Assembly: GCA_902762795.1 (NCBI GenBank)
Contig: CACWPM010000024.1
Location: 1 to 51,915 of the forward strand
DNA: 51,915 nt
Direction: 5' to 3'
Origin: Fibrobacter succinogenes
Lineage (GTDB): Bacteria; Fibrobacterota; Fibrobacteria; Fibrobacterales; Fibrobacteraceae
Part shown: piece after piece, positions 11,403-19,224 of the stretch
Position numbering within the stretch: position 1 is the first letter of the stretch
How the letters are laid out: every line of letters begins with the position of its first letter
Notes under the pieces: model-generated
The model's input: only the letters and a program-made list of their open reading frames with translations
Database searches by the model: none
Told to the model about the DNA's origin: nothing
Position numbers and translations under genes: made by a program

Positions 11403-11870
11403 ATGATGAAGGAATACCTCTTCAACTTGATAAAAAAACATCAATACAATATCTCCATCTATACTGAAGATATTTTTGAGAGACGTTGTCAGGAAGAAAT
11501 TATCCGCAGTGACGAGGATAACAGTTCCTTCGTGTACATCGAATTTGACTTCGCCGCCATCGAAAAGTCCCTTGGAAACGAAACCAATTCACAGCAATTC
11601 TGGAATATCTTTATGGAGACGCTTTCCAAGAACAAGCGCGGTGACGACATTCTCGGTTTCCTGGAACATGAAAGCGGAATTGGGCTTCTACTCCTGGATT
11701 CAAAACTCGATGGCTGGAGCCGGCTTGCAGGCCGTTTTCAACGAACAGCAAACGGAGAGGGTTTTGAAATCATGAACCTGGTTCTTGATAAAACCGTAAA
11801 ACCCATAGTCTATCCGACCTGCATCCAGGACATCAACAAAATACAAGAAACCGAAAAGCAGGCACCATGA
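11403..11870 (+). CDS. Unknown protein, possible degenerate GGDEF-like fold
   Basis: A 155-residue cytoplasmic protein without signal or membrane segments. The stretch KNKRGDDILGFLEHESGIGL (about 76-95) resembles the R-x-x-D-x-x-G/A-x-x-x-x-x-E-F core of diguanylate-cyclase domains but lacks GGDEF, so no cyclase activity is claimed. Its stop overlaps the start of the following glycosyltransferase by 4 bp (ATGA), implying translational coupling and a possible role in controlling exopolysaccharide synthesis. The start may be the ATG at 11403 or 11406; no clear ribosome site is seen. It is divergent from the DUF4954-like gene, with only 28 bp between starts. Confidence 0.55.
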   Translation: MMKEYLFNLIKKHQYNISIYTEDIFERRCQEEIIRSDEDNSSFVYIEFDFAAIEKSLGNETNSQQFWNIFMETLSKNKRGDDILGFLEHESGIGLLLLDSKLDGWSRLAGRFQRTANGEGFEIMNLVLDKTVKPIVYPTCIQDINKIQETEKQAP

Positions 11871-13141
11871 AAGTCCTCGTCATAGGCTCCGTCTACCCCA
11901 GATTTCAAGAGGATGCCGAAGTCCCCTGGTTACGCACTTCCATTGCGCACTTAAAAAAAGCAGGTGCCGAAATTCAAGTGCTCGCGCCCGCCTACAAGGG
12001 ACTCAAGAGCCATGACATCGACGGCACTCCCGTAAACCGCTTCCGTTACGCGCCCGCCGCCTGGGAAATCCTCACGCACGAAGAAGGCGCCCCCTCCAAG
12101 ATGGCTTCCAAGCCATGGCTGCAACTGCTCGCCATCCCGTACATCATCAACGGATTTTTCCAGTGCCTTAGAATTTGCCGCAAGTGGCGCCCCGATGTCA
12201 TCCATGCGCACTGGCCGTTCCCTCACGCCTATATAGCACTTGGCGCCGCAAAGCTTTTCAAAATCCCACTTGTACTCAATTTCCACGGTGCAGAACTTTT
12301 GCTCATCCGCAAAAAGAAATGGGTCAAGCCGCTTCTGAAATTCGCAATCGGCCAAGCACAAGCCATTTTCGCAAACTCAAGCTTCACCGCCGGTAAAATC
12401 AAGGCGCTCCGCAACGTGAACGTCGAATGGAGCCCGTACGGAACTACTTTAGAAATAGACAGTAGGAAGTCGGAAGTCGGAAGTACTCCGCATGCCGTGA
12501 ACGGCAAGTTCAAGATTCTCTTTGTCGGGCGTCACATCGAACGCAAAGGCATTACATACCTTATCGAAGCCGCAAAGTACTTGCCCAGGGACAAGTTCGA
12601 AATCCGTATCGTCGGCGGCGGCGACTTGACCGAACAACTTAAGCAGCAAGCGGAAGCAGTAGGAAGTGAATTTTCGCATTCTGAGTTGTCATCCTCGACC
12701 AAGTGCAACGCGGGAGGGGATCCATACAGTCTTGCAGACGCCCCTGCGTCCATCATTTTCACGGGCAAACTTTCACCCGAAGATCTCGCGAATGAATACA
12801 AGACCGCAAACGTCTTCACGCTTCCAGCGATTGTCGATAGCAAGGGCGACACCGAAGGCCTCGGAGTCGTCCTTATCGAGGCCATGGAACTTGGACTTCC
12901 CATTGTAGCAAGCAATGTCGGCGGAATCCCGGATGTCGTTGTCAATGGAGAATCGGGAATCCTCGTTCCCGAAAAAGACCCCGTAGCGCTTGCCGACGCC
13001 TTCAAGCGCCTTGAATCCGATCCGACACTGGTTAAAAAGCTTCTCGATGGCGCCCGCAAGCGCATTGAAGAATGCTTCACCTGGGACGGCATCATCGAAC
13101 GCCAAATAGATGTTTATAATAAAGTAATTAACAAACAATAG
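11867..13141 (+). CDS. GT4-type glycosyltransferase carrying in-frame repeat insertions
   Basis: A 424-residue GT-B glycosyltransferase. The acceptor half begins MKVLVIGSVYPRFQEDAEVP and has HAHWPFPHAYIALGAAKLF; the donor half has FKILFVGRHIERKGI (about 214-228) and EGLGVVLIEAMELGLPIVAS (about 328-347), the E-x7-E region of GT4 enzymes that retain the sugar anomer. The acceptor is unknown. Two stretches look foreign: SRKSEVGSTP (about 199-208), encoded by 7-bp repeats, and VGSEFSHSELSSSTKCNAGG (about 265-284), encoded by a heptad fragment plus a palindromic repeat. Both fall in loops where insertion is tolerable. It is translationally coupled to the gene before it. Confidence 0.88.
   Translation: MKVLVIGSVYPRFQEDAEVPWLRTSIAHLKKAGAEIQVLAPAYKGLKSHDIDGTPVNRFRYAPAAWEILTHEEGAPSKMASKPWLQLLAIPYIINGFFQCLRICRKWRPDVIHAHWPFPHAYIALGAAKLFKIPLVLNFHGAELLLIRKKKWVKPLLKFAIGQAQAIFANSSFTAGKIKALRNVNVEWSPYGTTLEIDSRKSEVGSTPHAVNGKFKILFVGRHIERKGITYLIEAAKYLPRDKFEIRIVGGGDLTEQLKQQAEAVGSEFSHSELSSSTKCNAGGDPYSLADAPASIIFTGKLSPEDLANEYKTANVFTLPAIVDSKGDTEGLGVVLIEAMELGLPIVASNVGGIPDVVVNGESGILVPEKDPVALADAFKRLESDPTLVKKLLDGARKRIEECFTWDGIIERQIDVYNKVINKQ
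12456..12483. repeat. Four heptads inside the GT4 gene
   Basis: TAGACAG, TAGGAAG, TCGGAAG, TCGGAAG with exact 7-bp period, in frame, encoding SRKSEVGS. Confidence 0.85.
12648..12735. repeat. Heptad fragment plus 'GTCATCCTCGACC...GGATCCATACAG' repeat inside the GT4 gene
   Basis: GCGGAAG, CAGTAGG, AAGTGAA-like units (12648-12670) are followed by GTCATCCTCGACCAAGTG ... GGGAGGGGATCCATACAG (12687-12730). The second part matches the outer ends of the repeats at 8637-8672 and 29517-29560. The reading frame is preserved. Confidence 0.75.
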
Positions 13142-13146
13142 GATAT

Positions 13147-13187
13147 TTACGTACTTCGACATCGTTTTTAAAGCACTTAGTACGTAA
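13147..13187. repeat. 41-bp inverted-repeat element, copy 1 (TTACGTAC-N25-GTACGTAA)
   Basis: TTACGTAC at 13147-13154 and its exact inverse GTACGTAA at 13180-13187, with 25 bases between. First of three elements of identical geometry in a 362-bp gap that contains no gene. Confidence 0.85.
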
Positions 13188-13292
13188 TTCTGAAATTTTT
13201 TTCATCGAAAAATACCGAAACACACCGAAAACGCATTTTTCAACACCTCAAACAATATTTTTTCCAGCATTTTTTTCACATTTTTACCAATT

Positions 13293-13333
13293 TTACGTAC
13301 TACACCGCTCAAGAACATCTTCCCAGTACGTAA
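13293..13333. repeat. 41-bp inverted-repeat element, copy 2
   Basis: TTACGTAC at 13293-13300 and GTACGTAA at 13326-13333, again exactly 25 bases apart. The spacer sequence is unrelated to copy 1. The 105 bp between copies 1 and 2 is AT-rich, with several ATTTTT and CCGAAA runs. Confidence 0.85.
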
Positions 13334-13356
13334 CATACAAAATAACAACAAAAACT

Positions 13357-13397
13357 TTACGTACCTGTCCCAGCAAAACAAACACTAAAGTACGTAA
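13357..13397. repeat. 41-bp inverted-repeat element, copy 3
   Basis: TTACGTAC at 13357-13364 and GTACGTAA at 13390-13397, 25-base spacer. It lies only 23 bp after copy 2. Confidence 0.85.
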
Positions 13398-13440
13398 ACC
13401 ATCCACTTTCCGCATTAAACGCACAAAAGCCGGACAAAGC

Positions 13441-13466
13441 AAAAAAAAAAACCGCAATGCTGCGGC
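13441..13466 (-). terminator. Terminator of the lipoprotein gene
   Basis: On the minus strand GCCGCA-GCAT-TGCGGT is followed by a run of ten T's. Two CCTAAAA heptad units lie between it and the gene's stop codon. Confidence 0.88.
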
Positions 13467-13503
13467 TTTGATTATGGTGCATTCAACACCTAAAACCTAA
13501 CAG

Positions 13504-13929
13504 TTATTTTACCTTAAACCCGGCCTTTTCAAAGGCATTTCTGTTTTCAGGATTTTTCAAGGCGACATTTGTAATCCAGTTGAATTCGGCAATTCCGCCT
13601 TGCAAACCCGCACGTGCACAAAGCTGGTCGCGGGCAACATTATAGGCATTCAGAATCTGGATTTTCTCGAAATCCTTGGCGTTGTCAATACGTTCGGACC
13701 ACTTCACTCCAAGCTCGACAAGACCGTTGCTCGCCTTCGCATAAGTCGTTGCTTTTTCGACTGTAATATTGGATTTTGAAGGAGCCGTAAACGGCATTAC
13801 GGGAACAATCGGCTGCGACTGCGGCAACACGACCTGGCTCACCGGCTTTGTTTCAGATTGCTTATCAGAGCAAGAAACAAAAAAAGAGGCGACAGCCAAA
13901 AGAGAAATTACTAGAACTTTTTTTGACAT
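13504..13929 (-). CDS. Small lipoprotein of unknown function
   Basis: A 141-residue protein. The signal peptide MSKKVLVISLLAVASFFVSC ends in a good lipobox (FVSC, Cys20), followed by SDKQSE. A Pro/Gln/Val-rich stretch (about 28-50) leads into a ~90-residue, mostly helical, conserved-looking domain containing two cysteines at most. No family is recognised. The gene starts 21 bp after the tRNA-Met gene on the same strand and ends at a strong terminator, so it may be expressed from the tRNA promoter after processing. The ribosome site GAGGCGAG overlaps the tRNA trailer. Confidence 0.8.
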   Translation of the reverse strand: MSKKVLVISLLAVASFFVSCSDKQSETKPVSQVVLPQSQPIVPVMPFTAPSKSNITVEKATTYAKASNGLVELGVKWSERIDNAKDFEKIQILNAYNVARDQLCARAGLQGGIAEFNWITNVALKNPENRNAFEKAGFKVK

Positions 13930-16354: not shown

Positions 16355-17374
16355 TTAACGGTTGTCCATTATTTCCTGGATTCGGGTCAGATCGTCCATG
16401 GAATAATAGTTGATGACTATGGTACCTTTGGTCTGGTCCTTGGCGCTTGGATTTAGTGCAACTTTTGTACCGAAGAATGTTTCAAGGCGCGATTCGAACT
16501 GTTTCATGTCGGCACTGAGTTCTAATTTCGGCTTTACCGTGACATCTACAGTCTCGGAATTTGCACCGTGGACTTCCGGAGGGAGCTCATCGCCCGCTTC
16601 GGCAGAAATATTTTCGGCTTCATTATCTTTTGTTTCTCGTCTTTCGTCTTTCGTCTCGAACGGATCTTCACCGCGGGCTATGGCTTCGATTTGGCGGACG
16701 TTCAAGCCTTCTTCGATGACACGCTTTGCGAGAGTTTCCGGGTCTGCGATTTTTTCGCTGCAGAGAGCACGGGCGGCGCCGCCTGCAAGTTTGCCTTCCT
16801 GGATCCAGGCCTGGACCTGGTTCGGAAGCTTCAAGAGACGAAGTGCGTTCGTGATGGCAGAACGGGATTTGCCGACCGTCTTGGCTAAGTCATCGTGCGT
16901 ATAATTGTGGTTGTCGATCAACTGCTGATACGACTGCGCGATTTCAATCGGATTCAAATCGACACGCTGGATATTCTCGATAAGTGCCCATTCGTTCATG
17001 GTCTTGTCATCGAGATTGTCGTAAACCTGTGCCTTGATGGTTCGGCAGTTGGCTAGTTTGGATGCGCGGGTACGGCGTTCGCCGCTAATGATCTGGTAAC
17101 GGTCGCCCACTTTGCGAACCGCGATCGGCTGGATGAGTCCGTGTTTTTCGATGGTTTCCGCAAGTTCTACAAGTTCATCGTCGTTAAAGAACTTGCGCGG
17201 CTGGAACGGGTTAGGGTCAATCAAGTCGATGTTGATTTCGACGATTTTCTGGTTGTCCGGATTTACGTTTTCATTTGCGCCGGTATTGTTGATAGCGTTA
17301 TCGAGAGAGTTACCGAGAACATCGTGTGCTTTGAAAATTGCTGAAAGACCGCGACCGAGTGCTTGTTTACCCAT
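16355..17374 (-). CDS. parB: Chromosome-partitioning protein ParB, with heptad-encoded insertion
   Basis: A 339-residue ParB/Spo0J CTP-dependent clamp that loads at parS. The N-terminal domain has GERRTRASKLAN (98-109, the CTP-binding motif) and IENIQRVDLNPIE; the central helix-turn-helix includes TVGKSRSAITNALRLLKL (about 167-184); the C-terminal ~45 residues form the dimerisation domain. The linker is long compared with typical ParBs of about 280-300 residues and contains ETKDERRETKD (about 240-250), encoded by tandem 7-bp repeats. The start codon lies next to another heptad block that replaces any Shine-Dalgarno. The gene follows parA on the same strand; five parS sites lie upstream of rsmG. 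Confidence 0.95.
   Translation of the reverse strand: MGKQALGRGLSAIFKAHDVLGNSLDNAINNTGANENVNPDNQKIVEINIDLIDPNPFQPRKFFNDDELVELAETIEKHGLIQPIAVRKVGDRYQIISGERRTRASKLANCRTIKAQVYDNLDDKTMNEWALIENIQRVDLNPIEIAQSYQQLIDNHNYTHDDLAKTVGKSRSAITNALRLLKLPNQVQAWIQEGKLAGGAARALCSEKIADPETLAKRVIEEGLNVRQIEAIARGEDPFETKDERRETKDNEAENISAEAGDELPPEVHGANSETVDVTVKPKLELSADMKQFESRLETFFGTKVALNPSAKDQTKGTIVINYYSMDDLTRIQEIMDNR
16633..16660. repeat. Four heptads inside parB
   Basis: TTTCTCG, TCTTTCG, TCTTTCG, TCTCGAA with 7-bp period. On the coding strand this is the AGACGAR flavour and gives a 7-residue protein period (ETKDERR). Confidence 0.88.
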
Positions 17375-17378
17375 AATA

Positions 17379-17539
17379 GTGACTAGTGGTTAGTGGTTGG
17401 TGGTTAGTAGGACAAATGCGTAAAACAAGAATTAATGGGTTATAGGTTACAGGCTTTAGGTTTTAGGTTAGTTTGGCACCGAAGGTGCGATTATATAATA
17501 TAATCCTAATCCCTAACGGCCTAATCCCTAAAACCTAAT
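17379..17539. repeat. Heptad blocks and triloop hairpin filling the parA-parB gap
   Basis: TGGTTAG-type units (17380-17411), AGGTTAT-type units (17437-17471), hairpin GCACC-GAA-GGTGC (about 17476-17488), then inverted CCTAATC-type units (17504-17538). The entire 165-bp parA-parB intergenic region is repeat. Confidence 0.88.
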
Positions 17540-18325
17540 TCACTTTTCCTTATTCAATATTTCCTCGGCGAGTTTCATGTACGATTGCGAGCCCGTACTT
17601 TGCACATCGTAAAGGATGACCGGTTTTCCGTGGGACGGGGCTTCAGAGAGTTTCACGTTACGCGGAATCATTGTCTGGAAAACGGTATCACTCAAGTTTT
17701 CGCGAACTTCTTCGGCAACTTGTTTTGAAAGGCTTAGACGGGAATCGTACATCGTCAGGAGCGCGCCTTCGATTTTCAAGTTGGAGTTCAGATTCTTCTG
17801 GACTTCACGGATGGTCTTGAAAAGTTCGGTCATACCCTGCAATGCATAGTATTCACACTGCACCGGAATGAGCACGCTCGTTGCGGCCGTCAGTGTATTA
17901 ATTGTGAGTAAGTTCAGGCTCGGAGGAGCGTCGATGATGATAAAATCGAACTCCTGCTTGAGTATATTTATTACGCGTTCGAGCCTACGTTCGCGACTCA
18001 TAGCGTTTACCAGTTCGATTTCCATGACGGCTAAATCAGGACCGGCTGTAATCATTTTCAAAAATTCAAGCGGAGTATCTACAATAGCGGGCTTGATATT
18101 TTCAAACGTCAAGTTGTCCGGGTTTCCAGCCATATCGAGAATTTCGTGGATATCCATTTCTTGGGATTCCATGAAACCAAGACCCTGCGAAGCGTTACCT
18201 TGCGGATCCATATCTAAAAGAAGAGTCTTCTTTTCCAGGGCGGCAAAACTTGCAGCCAGGTTTACGGCCGTCGTGGTCTTGCCCACGCCGCCTTTCTGGT
18301 TGCATACTGCTATCACTTTACTCAT
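17540..18325 (-). CDS. parA: Chromosome-partitioning ATPase ParA (Soj)
   Basis: A 261-residue ParA-type Walker ATPase that binds DNA in the ATP state and is stimulated by ParB. The deviant Walker A motif is CNQKGGVGKTTTAVNLAA (about 8-25), Walker A' is LLLDMDPQGNASQGL, and Walker B is FIIIDAPPSLNLLT. The length is typical of chromosomal ParA without a DNA-binding extension. Its ATG overlaps the rsmG stop codon by 4 bp (ATGA), giving an rsmG-parA-parB operon, the usual origin-proximal arrangement. Downstream lies a long heptad-repeat gap before parB. Confidence 0.96.
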   Translation of the reverse strand: MSKVIAVCNQKGGVGKTTTAVNLAASFAALEKKTLLLDMDPQGNASQGLGFMESQEMDIHEILDMAGNPDNLTFENIKPAIVDTPLEFLKMITAGPDLAVMEIELVNAMSRERRLERVINILKQEFDFIIIDAPPSLNLLTINTLTAATSVLIPVQCEYYALQGMTELFKTIREVQKNLNSNLKIEGALLTMYDSRLSLSKQVAEEVRENLSDTVFQTMIPRNVKLSEAPSHGKPVILYDVQSTGSQSYMKLAEEILNKEK

Positions 18326-19110
18326 TTATTACCTCGAGTGACTAAGGCGTAATCCTGTTCTTCGTTCGGCAGGTTGTATTTCCAGATATTGACTGCCGGG
18401 TCGTTTTCCAGGTGTGAAATGCTGTTAAAACTCTTGAGGGTGACGAAAAGTCCACCCTTCTTGAGGGCAGGCTGTGCACGTTCCCAGTCGTTTTCGAAAG
18501 TCGAGAGGGCGCGGCAGCTGATGAAGTCCAGGTCGGTAAGGCCTGAAGTCTCGAAGCGCTTGCCCACTACGGTCAGGTTCTTGAGTCCGAGTTTTTCCTT
18601 GGCGTAGTTCATGAATTCCACGCGCATGTGACGTGGCTCCACTGCATAGAACTGCACACCGGGCATCGCGATGGCGAGCGGGAAAACCGGACAGCCTGCA
18701 CCTGCACCCATATCCGCCCACTTTATAGACGAAAGATCGCTTCGCTGGTAGACGATAGACGATAGGGCACCTCTTTCGTCTTTCGTCTTTCGTCTTTCGT
18801 CTAATATATATATATAGGGAACGAGCGAATCAGCAATGTGCCTGCTCAGAAACTTCTCGGAATCTTTCGCCGAAATCAGGTTGCCGAATTGCTTCGTTTC
18901 TACCACTAGGTCGGCAAAGTCATAGAGTTTGTCCATTTGCTCTTTGGACAACTGTACATCATGCCCCTTCAGGAACTGGTTCAGAAGATTTTGTTGCTCT
19001 ATGTTTGTTTTGTAACTCAAGTTTTTCTTATTGTCATTCCCGCCACCGAGCGGGAATCTCCCTTTTGTTTTTGCGCTTTCTTCGAAAATGTCGGTAAACA
19101 GATTTCCCAT
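18322..19110 (-). CDS. rsmG: 16S rRNA G527 methyltransferase RsmG (GidB) with repeat-encoded insertions
   Basis: RsmG transfers a methyl group from S-adenosylmethionine to N7 of G527 in 16S rRNA. The SAM-binding motif is ADMGAGAGCPVFPLAIAMPG, preceded by RHIADSLV. I place the start at MGNLFTDIFEES (19110); in-frame ATGs at 19146 (inside a parS site, giving MFHVKQ) and 19224 are also possible, and none has a good ribosome site. The protein is long for the family because of two repeat-derived stretches: GRFPLGGGNDNKK near the N-terminus, and about 26 residues beginning LDERRKTKDERG between the RHIADSLV and SAM motifs. Translationally coupled to parA. Confidence 0.92.
   Translation of the reverse strand: MGNLFTDIFEESAKTKGRFPLGGGNDNKKNLSYKTNIEQQNLLNQFLKGHDVQLSKEQMDKLYDFADLVVETKQFGNLISAKDSEKFLSRHIADSLVPYIYILDERRKTKDERGALSSIVYQRSDLSSIKWADMGAGAGCPVFPLAIAMPGVQFYAVEPRHMRVEFMNYAKEKLGLKNLTVVGKRFETSGLTDLDFISCRALSTFENDWERAQPALKKGGLFVTLKSFNSISHLENDPAVNIWKYNLPNEEQDYALVTRGNK
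18726..18802. repeat. Heptads and hairpin inside rsmG
   Basis: AGACGAA and AGACGAT units (about 18727-18754) with a small GCGAAGC-type hairpin, then TCTTTCG units (about 18772-18800) in inverted orientation, ending in an AT dinucleotide tract. All in frame. Confidence 0.82.
19033..19061. repeat. 'GTCATTCCCGCCACCGAGCGGG' palindrome inside rsmG
   Basis: GTCATTCCCGC...GCGGGAATCTCC, a short palindromic repeat of the same class as 47438-47468, is read in frame as part of the RsmG N-terminus. Confidence 0.7.
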
Positions 19111-19129
19111 CGCGACTTTCGCTTTCGAC

Positions 19130-19145
19130 TGTTTCACGTGAAACA
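19130..19145. promoter_or_regulatory. parS site 1
   Basis: TGTTTCACGTGAAACA, a perfect 16-bp palindrome that matches the conserved bacterial parS. It lies in the 5' region of rsmG and can be read as MFHVKQ. Confidence 0.93.
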
Positions 19146-19224
19146 TACGCAGAGTGAGAGTCGCGACCACATTTGTGTGGGCATTGCCGAACCCAAGTAT
19201 GTAGGACACGGAGTGTCCAAACAT
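19146..19224. repeat. Double-hairpin element attached to parS 1
   Basis: Following parS: GAGAGTCGCGAC box, hairpin CCACA-TTTG-TGTGG (about 19168-19181), linker GGCATTGCCGAACCC, then hairpin GGACAC-GGA-GTGTCC (about 19204-19218). The same order of parts occurs after parS 4. Confidence 0.65.

Follow-up and report, generated by a model that had tools for sequence, protein, structure and literature searches.

A three-unit array in Fibrobacter succinogenes is probably a solo copy of a cooperative, multi-unit binding platform for a nuclease-fold protein encoded on another contig (C23) of the same genome; it would have spread by copying and been kept by selection. The array lies in the window, the whole 51,915-base stretch of DNA that was analysed, and each of its units joins the word TTACGTAC to its inverse GTACGTAA. 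Taking all arrays and their proteins together, we lean towards a previously undescribed two-part system. It would pair a stand-alone PD-(D/E)XK-fold protein carrying an exchangeable beta-hairpin head with a helically phased address array, the two being passed on and swapped as one cassette; dispersed addresses would be kept working, and all sites would be re-addressed upon a change of head.

The initial annotation of the window described three TTACGTAC-N25-GTACGTAA pairs in a gene-free gap and no such pair elsewhere. Both statements are confirmed: the window contains six exact copies of the two words, all of them in the three units (Table 1). The spacing of exactly 25 bp holds for these units, but not genome-wide, where 24-26 bp occurs; the spacers, described as unrelated, share a composition, in that an A/T-rich centre with G/C-rich stretches on either side recurs. 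The array corresponds to a doublet - long gap - doublet layout that lacks one unit of the first doublet. The stop codon of the glycosyltransferase gene and the 3' end of the lipoprotein-like gene both face the array; therefore, the flanking genes are convergent. An rsmG-parA-parB gene order (16355-19224) adjoins the array region, which probably places the window near the chromosome origin; taken together, the arrays extend beyond this presumed origin region.

Table 1. Coordinates of the array, its surroundings (window positions) and the cognate gene (contig positions)
Feature	Position	Strand	Remarks
Unit 1, TTACGTAC-N25-GTACGTAA	13147..13187	.	Exact word match
Unit 2, TTACGTAC-N25-GTACGTAA	13293..13333	.	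Starts 146 bp (14 helical turns) after unit 1
Unit 3, TTACGTAC-N25-GTACGTAA	13357..13397	.	Starts 64 bp (6 helical turns) after unit 2
Accessory motif ACAAAATAA	13337..13345	+	Just outside the right arm of unit 2
Intergenic space housing the solo array	13142..13503	.	362 bp
Glycosyltransferase gene	11867-13141	+	Stop codon borders the 362-bp space
Small lipoprotein-like gene	13504-13929	-	3' end borders the 362-bp space; adjoins tRNA-Met
Cognate gene (locus L034), G000 contig C23	35782-36609		~276 aa; flanked by two arrays

In the draft genome that contains the window (G000), a search permitting interiors of N15-45 found 47 exact TTACGTAC-N24..26-GTACGTAA units, no exact pair at any other spacing and none of the same pattern read backwards; random spacing of the words, the outcome that the initial annotation had named as adverse, is not what the genome holds. 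The 47 units fall in 15 arrays on 12 contigs, all intergenic, and the main layouts are doublet - long gap - doublet (63-64 / 135-168 / 63-64) and 64/95/84 or 85/85. Among 60 relatives (most genomes being drafts, with one genome searched per species), 58 have no such pair, and the TTACGTAC word is limited to a sister species, with 20 units, and a further species, with 4. The motif ACAAANTAA follows one arm per array in 11 of the 13 solo TTACGTAC arrays, and the arrays are therefore polar; it is found in 18 of 27 Fibrobacter gene arrays versus 1 of 27 control regions. We also considered ACAAANTAA as a general Fibrobacter promoter and rejected this, its reverse motif occurring three times in the window, as expected by chance. 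A second dispersed set in G000 uses the word GTACCTATAAA (53 matches to the core) and is tied to a paralog at C37. From locus to locus, the GTACCTATAAA arrays can be recognised as copies of each other that have diverged, and their flanks are unrelated; therefore, arrays appear to spread by copying and then stay. At locus L035 (3667-3779), two identical adjoining units, spacer included, form a 73-bp tandem duplication, a recent local expansion of the array.

The window array is linked to the C23 gene by its word and by the gene's own flanking arrays: the gene sits between two TTACGTAC arrays, and the same layout is present in the sister species. Its protein matches no Pfam or NCBIfam family, and a sequence search of the PDB was empty. 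The family is multi-copy, with six matches in G000, and is present in 24 of 61 genomes, all of the same genus (a few matches are weak); upstream of most copies lies an array that keeps this geometry but uses a word of its own. Across 85,000 collected genomes, members are frequent in Fibrobacter, Treponema and Lachnospiraceae/Clostridia; searches of phage, plasmid and viral collections yielded hardly any relatives, and a phage or plasmid origin was thus rejected. At the best 80 loci, at least two same-word inverted pairs lie upstream in 56 and at least three in 43, versus 1 of 63 control stretches; an exact-7-mer detector found no upstream array for 24 of the 80. One control stretch, 1,900-2,800 bp upstream of the gene at L161 in Butyrivibrio hungatei, holds four inverted pairs of AGTGACT, each 38 bp long, which probably make up a further array built on another word. 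Words at other family loci include GTACCTATAAA, GGGGCGTATAAA, ATGCATATAAA, TCCGACTTAAC and TACGGACGAAA, so that the DNA target of an uncurated multi-copy family of rumen and gut bacteria becomes legible directly in the sequence. Most arrays in the Treponema genomes examined stay close to a gene; dispersal may therefore be a peculiarity of Fibrobacter.

Some family genes lie between two direct copies of their own array (L034, L039, L068, L070 and L075). At L068 (960-1480 and 2280-2700 on G004 C1), upstream of trpS, the two array copies are near-identical and ~300 bp long; the arrangement at L075 (G000 C3) is the same and may be likened to a small long-terminal-repeat.

The geometry of the arrays is helical. 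For 137 centre-to-centre unit spacings from 43 arrays, a free period scan is best at 10.50 bp (R=0.93); keeping one locus per word leaves 97 spacings and R=0.92, with related loci not fully independent. The spacings cluster at about 52, 63, 74, 84, 95, 105, 126, 137, 147 and 158 bp. Within units, GC content is lowest at the centre and 9-11 bp away and highest at 3-6 bp, a profile that Fibrobacter shares with other phyla, whose words are unrelated. The phasing and the GC profile together point to proteins on one face of bent duplex DNA, not to RNA. A separate row of eleven TACGGAC units in a Treponemataceae genome (G067 C41, 21991-22983) advances in steps of almost exactly 95-96 bp, or nine helical turns, apart from the six-unit array at a family gene.

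Comparison of orthologous arrays, identified by shared flanking genes and, for the window copy, also by recognisable intervening DNA, indicates selection on the words. In four such arrays of G000 and the sister genome G001, arms (tallied with up to two mismatches per arm permitted) differ at 7 of 239 positions (2.9%), against 47-48% in the interiors (179/374), inter-unit DNA (222/458) and flanks (135/285). Since the arms are nearly unchanged amid ~48% divergence at sites that have not moved, they are under constraint, and the decaying copies that the initial annotation had named as an adverse outcome are not observed. The contrast is weaker, but in the same direction, when G000 and G019 are compared at orthologous arrays of a second word (5% versus 14-21%, one pair having an alignment problem).

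The window array itself has an orthologue in another sister species (G006), where the layout and recognisable intervening DNA are kept and every one of the six arms has become TTACATAC through a change at the same symmetric position. TTACATAC is the genome-wide word of G006 (26 units, none in G000 or G001) and is also the word at the family gene of G006. The array is absent from the orthologous intergenic space in G001, G004 and G014. G019 also carries TTACATAC arrays (C6, C16, C29, C70 and C102; L253-L257), whose arms show no clear decay, a result that is uninformative at the 88% completeness of this genome. No gene with this word was found in it; either sequence is missing or a protein there reads two words.

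Word and protein change together. The proteins at L110 and L114 are 98% identical in the nuclease part and 93% in residues 71-138, but only 14% in residues 1-37 and 30% in residues 38-70; their similarity breaks at codon ~52, and their words differ. At one locus, represented by L120 and L124, DNA that is 94-96% identical lies on either side of an unrelated ~730-bp block, which comprises the array and the first ~51 codons, and again the words differ. At a purA-adjacent locus, several species have the same protein body with different heads and words. Judged from these alignments, the array and the first ~51 codons appear to be exchanged as a single block, leaving the remainder of the gene in place. 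Across 38 proteins, word similarity tracks residues 38-70 after general relatedness is allowed for (reached by 0 of 500 permutations); it does not track residues 1-37, and residues 106-180 show part of the signal. Moreover, proteins with the word TTACATA, from Fibrobacter and a Treponema, have in common an N-H in the first strand of the hairpin. Considering this shared pair and the tracking of residues 38-70, the beta-hairpin is the likely reader. Dozens of natural protein-word pairs therefore offer a ready-made recognition code with natural head swaps.

In the AlphaFold model of the protein (pLDDT 95.7), a coiled coil with a beta-hairpin (42-57) and a long helix precede a C-terminal PD-(D/E)XK-type domain, whose core elements are H168-179, E190-194, E197-201, E205-209, E214-221 and H227-242. 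The C-terminal domain matches Bax1, TnsA, Vsr, VRR_NUC and the R2 endonuclease in structure, with middling Z-scores of 6-8, and the C-terminus of PADLOC PDC-S68 and HEAT_CxxC_PDDEXK in sequence. The model thus appears to have the core fold of the PD-(D/E)XK superfamily, given the agreement of several families and the PDC-S68 match. In 60 sequences, E170, E187, E219 and H220 never vary, and D204 and K236 hardly do; this makes an active site plausible in the prediction, with the motif E-H-x-G in place of (D/E)-x-K and a non-canonical position of the catalytic lysine. For the N-terminal part, a known fold was sought and rejected, the hits being uninformative coiled-coil look-alikes (Snf7, prefoldin; Z 8-9.5).

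We propose the following mechanism. The beta-hairpin heads of a dimer would read the two inverted words of one unit, whose centres are 33 bp apart, and the DNA between them, soft at its A/T centre, would bend around the protein. With units whole helical turns apart, several dimers may sit on one face of the DNA and, through cooperative assembly, form a single complex on each array. Arrays would spread in the genome by copying, perhaps through activity of the nuclease domain, and would then be kept by selection at the new place, so each copy presumably still works. A selfish or homing role is possible, as is a benefit to the host through a role in chromosome organisation. Overall, the reading offered by the initial annotation is partly supported. 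The C23 gene, the helical phasing and the word-protein co-variation lend good support to its suggestion that the sites bind a dimer or tetramer whose gene lies far away; its crossover or attachment sites are possible, the cognate protein having a predicted nuclease fold and being no known recombinase.

The arrays may instead be ends or landing sites of a mobile element, at which a TnsA-like or restriction-like endonuclease nicks or cuts and so moves or homes the gene and its array, the solo arrays being non-autonomous or left over. This is a possibility to be taken seriously, though we doubt it. Diverged copies at unrelated loci of one genome, the five genes between direct array copies, the differing presence of arrays among sister species and the resemblance of the nuclease domain to TnsA are all consistent with it. 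However, perfect arms at fixed orthologous sites where all else is saturated are unexpected of a dead or idle copy; there is no recurrent partner or transposition gene among the neighbours of 78 loci, and neither clean insertion boundaries nor a target duplication were seen at this divergence in comparisons between sister species and between loci. The same arm conservation speaks against neutral, MITE-like debris whose arms look perfect merely through an exact-match search. The common ancestry of copies at different loci would suit such debris, but the contrast of arms and surroundings persists with mismatches permitted, and the coordinated arm change in G006 and the helical phase of the units also make this explanation highly improbable.

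It is unlikely that the arrays are operators of a conventional regulon, with the protein in effect a transcription regulator and each array controlling its neighbouring gene. An array upstream of the protein's own gene at most loci, and a word that co-varies with the protein as operator does with regulator, are what a regulon predicts; yet the genes beside solo arrays are unrelated to one another, and their orientations (convergent, tandem or divergent) occur at roughly random frequencies. The window copy lies between two gene ends with no start codon near, unlike a promoter site, and the operator array suggested by the initial annotation is thus unsupported there. Least credible of all is an RNA element, in which the units would be transcribed hairpins or guide cassettes: although each unit is an inverted repeat able to fold, the units keep a 10.5-bp phase, their interiors have no conserved sequence, and an Rfam search returned tmRNA and tRNA alone, with no match for the array. 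Nor do the arrays resemble a CRISPR-like or spacer-bearing cassette array, the last suggestion of the initial annotation; acquired spacers are kept, whereas these interiors drift like the surrounding intergenic DNA.

The binding platform with its nuclease-fold protein is closest in logic to REPIN-RAYT, in which REP doublets have a cognate REP-associated tyrosine transposase (PMC3116915, PMC8049555). Both have inverted word pairs with a loose interior, dispersed in extragenic space, one protein gene per family beside the same words, and repeat populations kept over long times. The arrays nevertheless fall outside the REPIN-RAYT definition because the enzyme class differs: the protein is predicted to have a PD-(D/E)XK fold and is no Y1/HUH tyrosine transposase. 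Furthermore, the two words of a unit stand as far as 33 bp apart, and the units keep a helical phase, form arrays of 3-5 and number tens, unlike the single-strand hairpins and hundreds of copies of REPINs; the arms of the units are constrained in place, and the reading head is exchanged in one block with its array. The 10.5-bp phasing argues for duplex binding, as opposed to the single-stranded hairpin intermediate of REPINs. Our search of the open-access literature, without preprints, found REPIN/RAYT papers and no published account of this array-protein system. The system would pose the REPIN-type puzzle, of why a bacterium keeps dispersed repeats working, for a second time and with an unrelated enzyme.

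Other systems share single parts. The PD-(D/E)XK domain is structurally similar to TnsA of Tn7-like transposons (Z 7.6, 117-123 residues aligned), and multi-site ends are a Tn7 feature too. In Tn7, it is TnsB rather than TnsA that binds the site arrays, and unlike in Tn7-like transposons, tnsB and tnsC do not recur beside the family genes at the 78 loci. Over its C-terminal ~125 residues, the protein also aligns with the C-terminal end of PDC-S68 (E down to 1.5e-28), one of the PDC-S68/S69 candidate defence proteins of PADLOC; those have ~1,200 residues, whereas here the domain follows a small, predicted DNA-reading head without a large enzyme part. In HsdS, the specificity subunit of type I restriction systems, recombination exchanges the part that recognises DNA and leaves the remainder of the gene in place. 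The recognition part of the array protein is likewise exchanged on a constant gene body; unlike HsdS, it has no recurrent neighbour such as a methylase, and its putative binding array is swapped together with the head.
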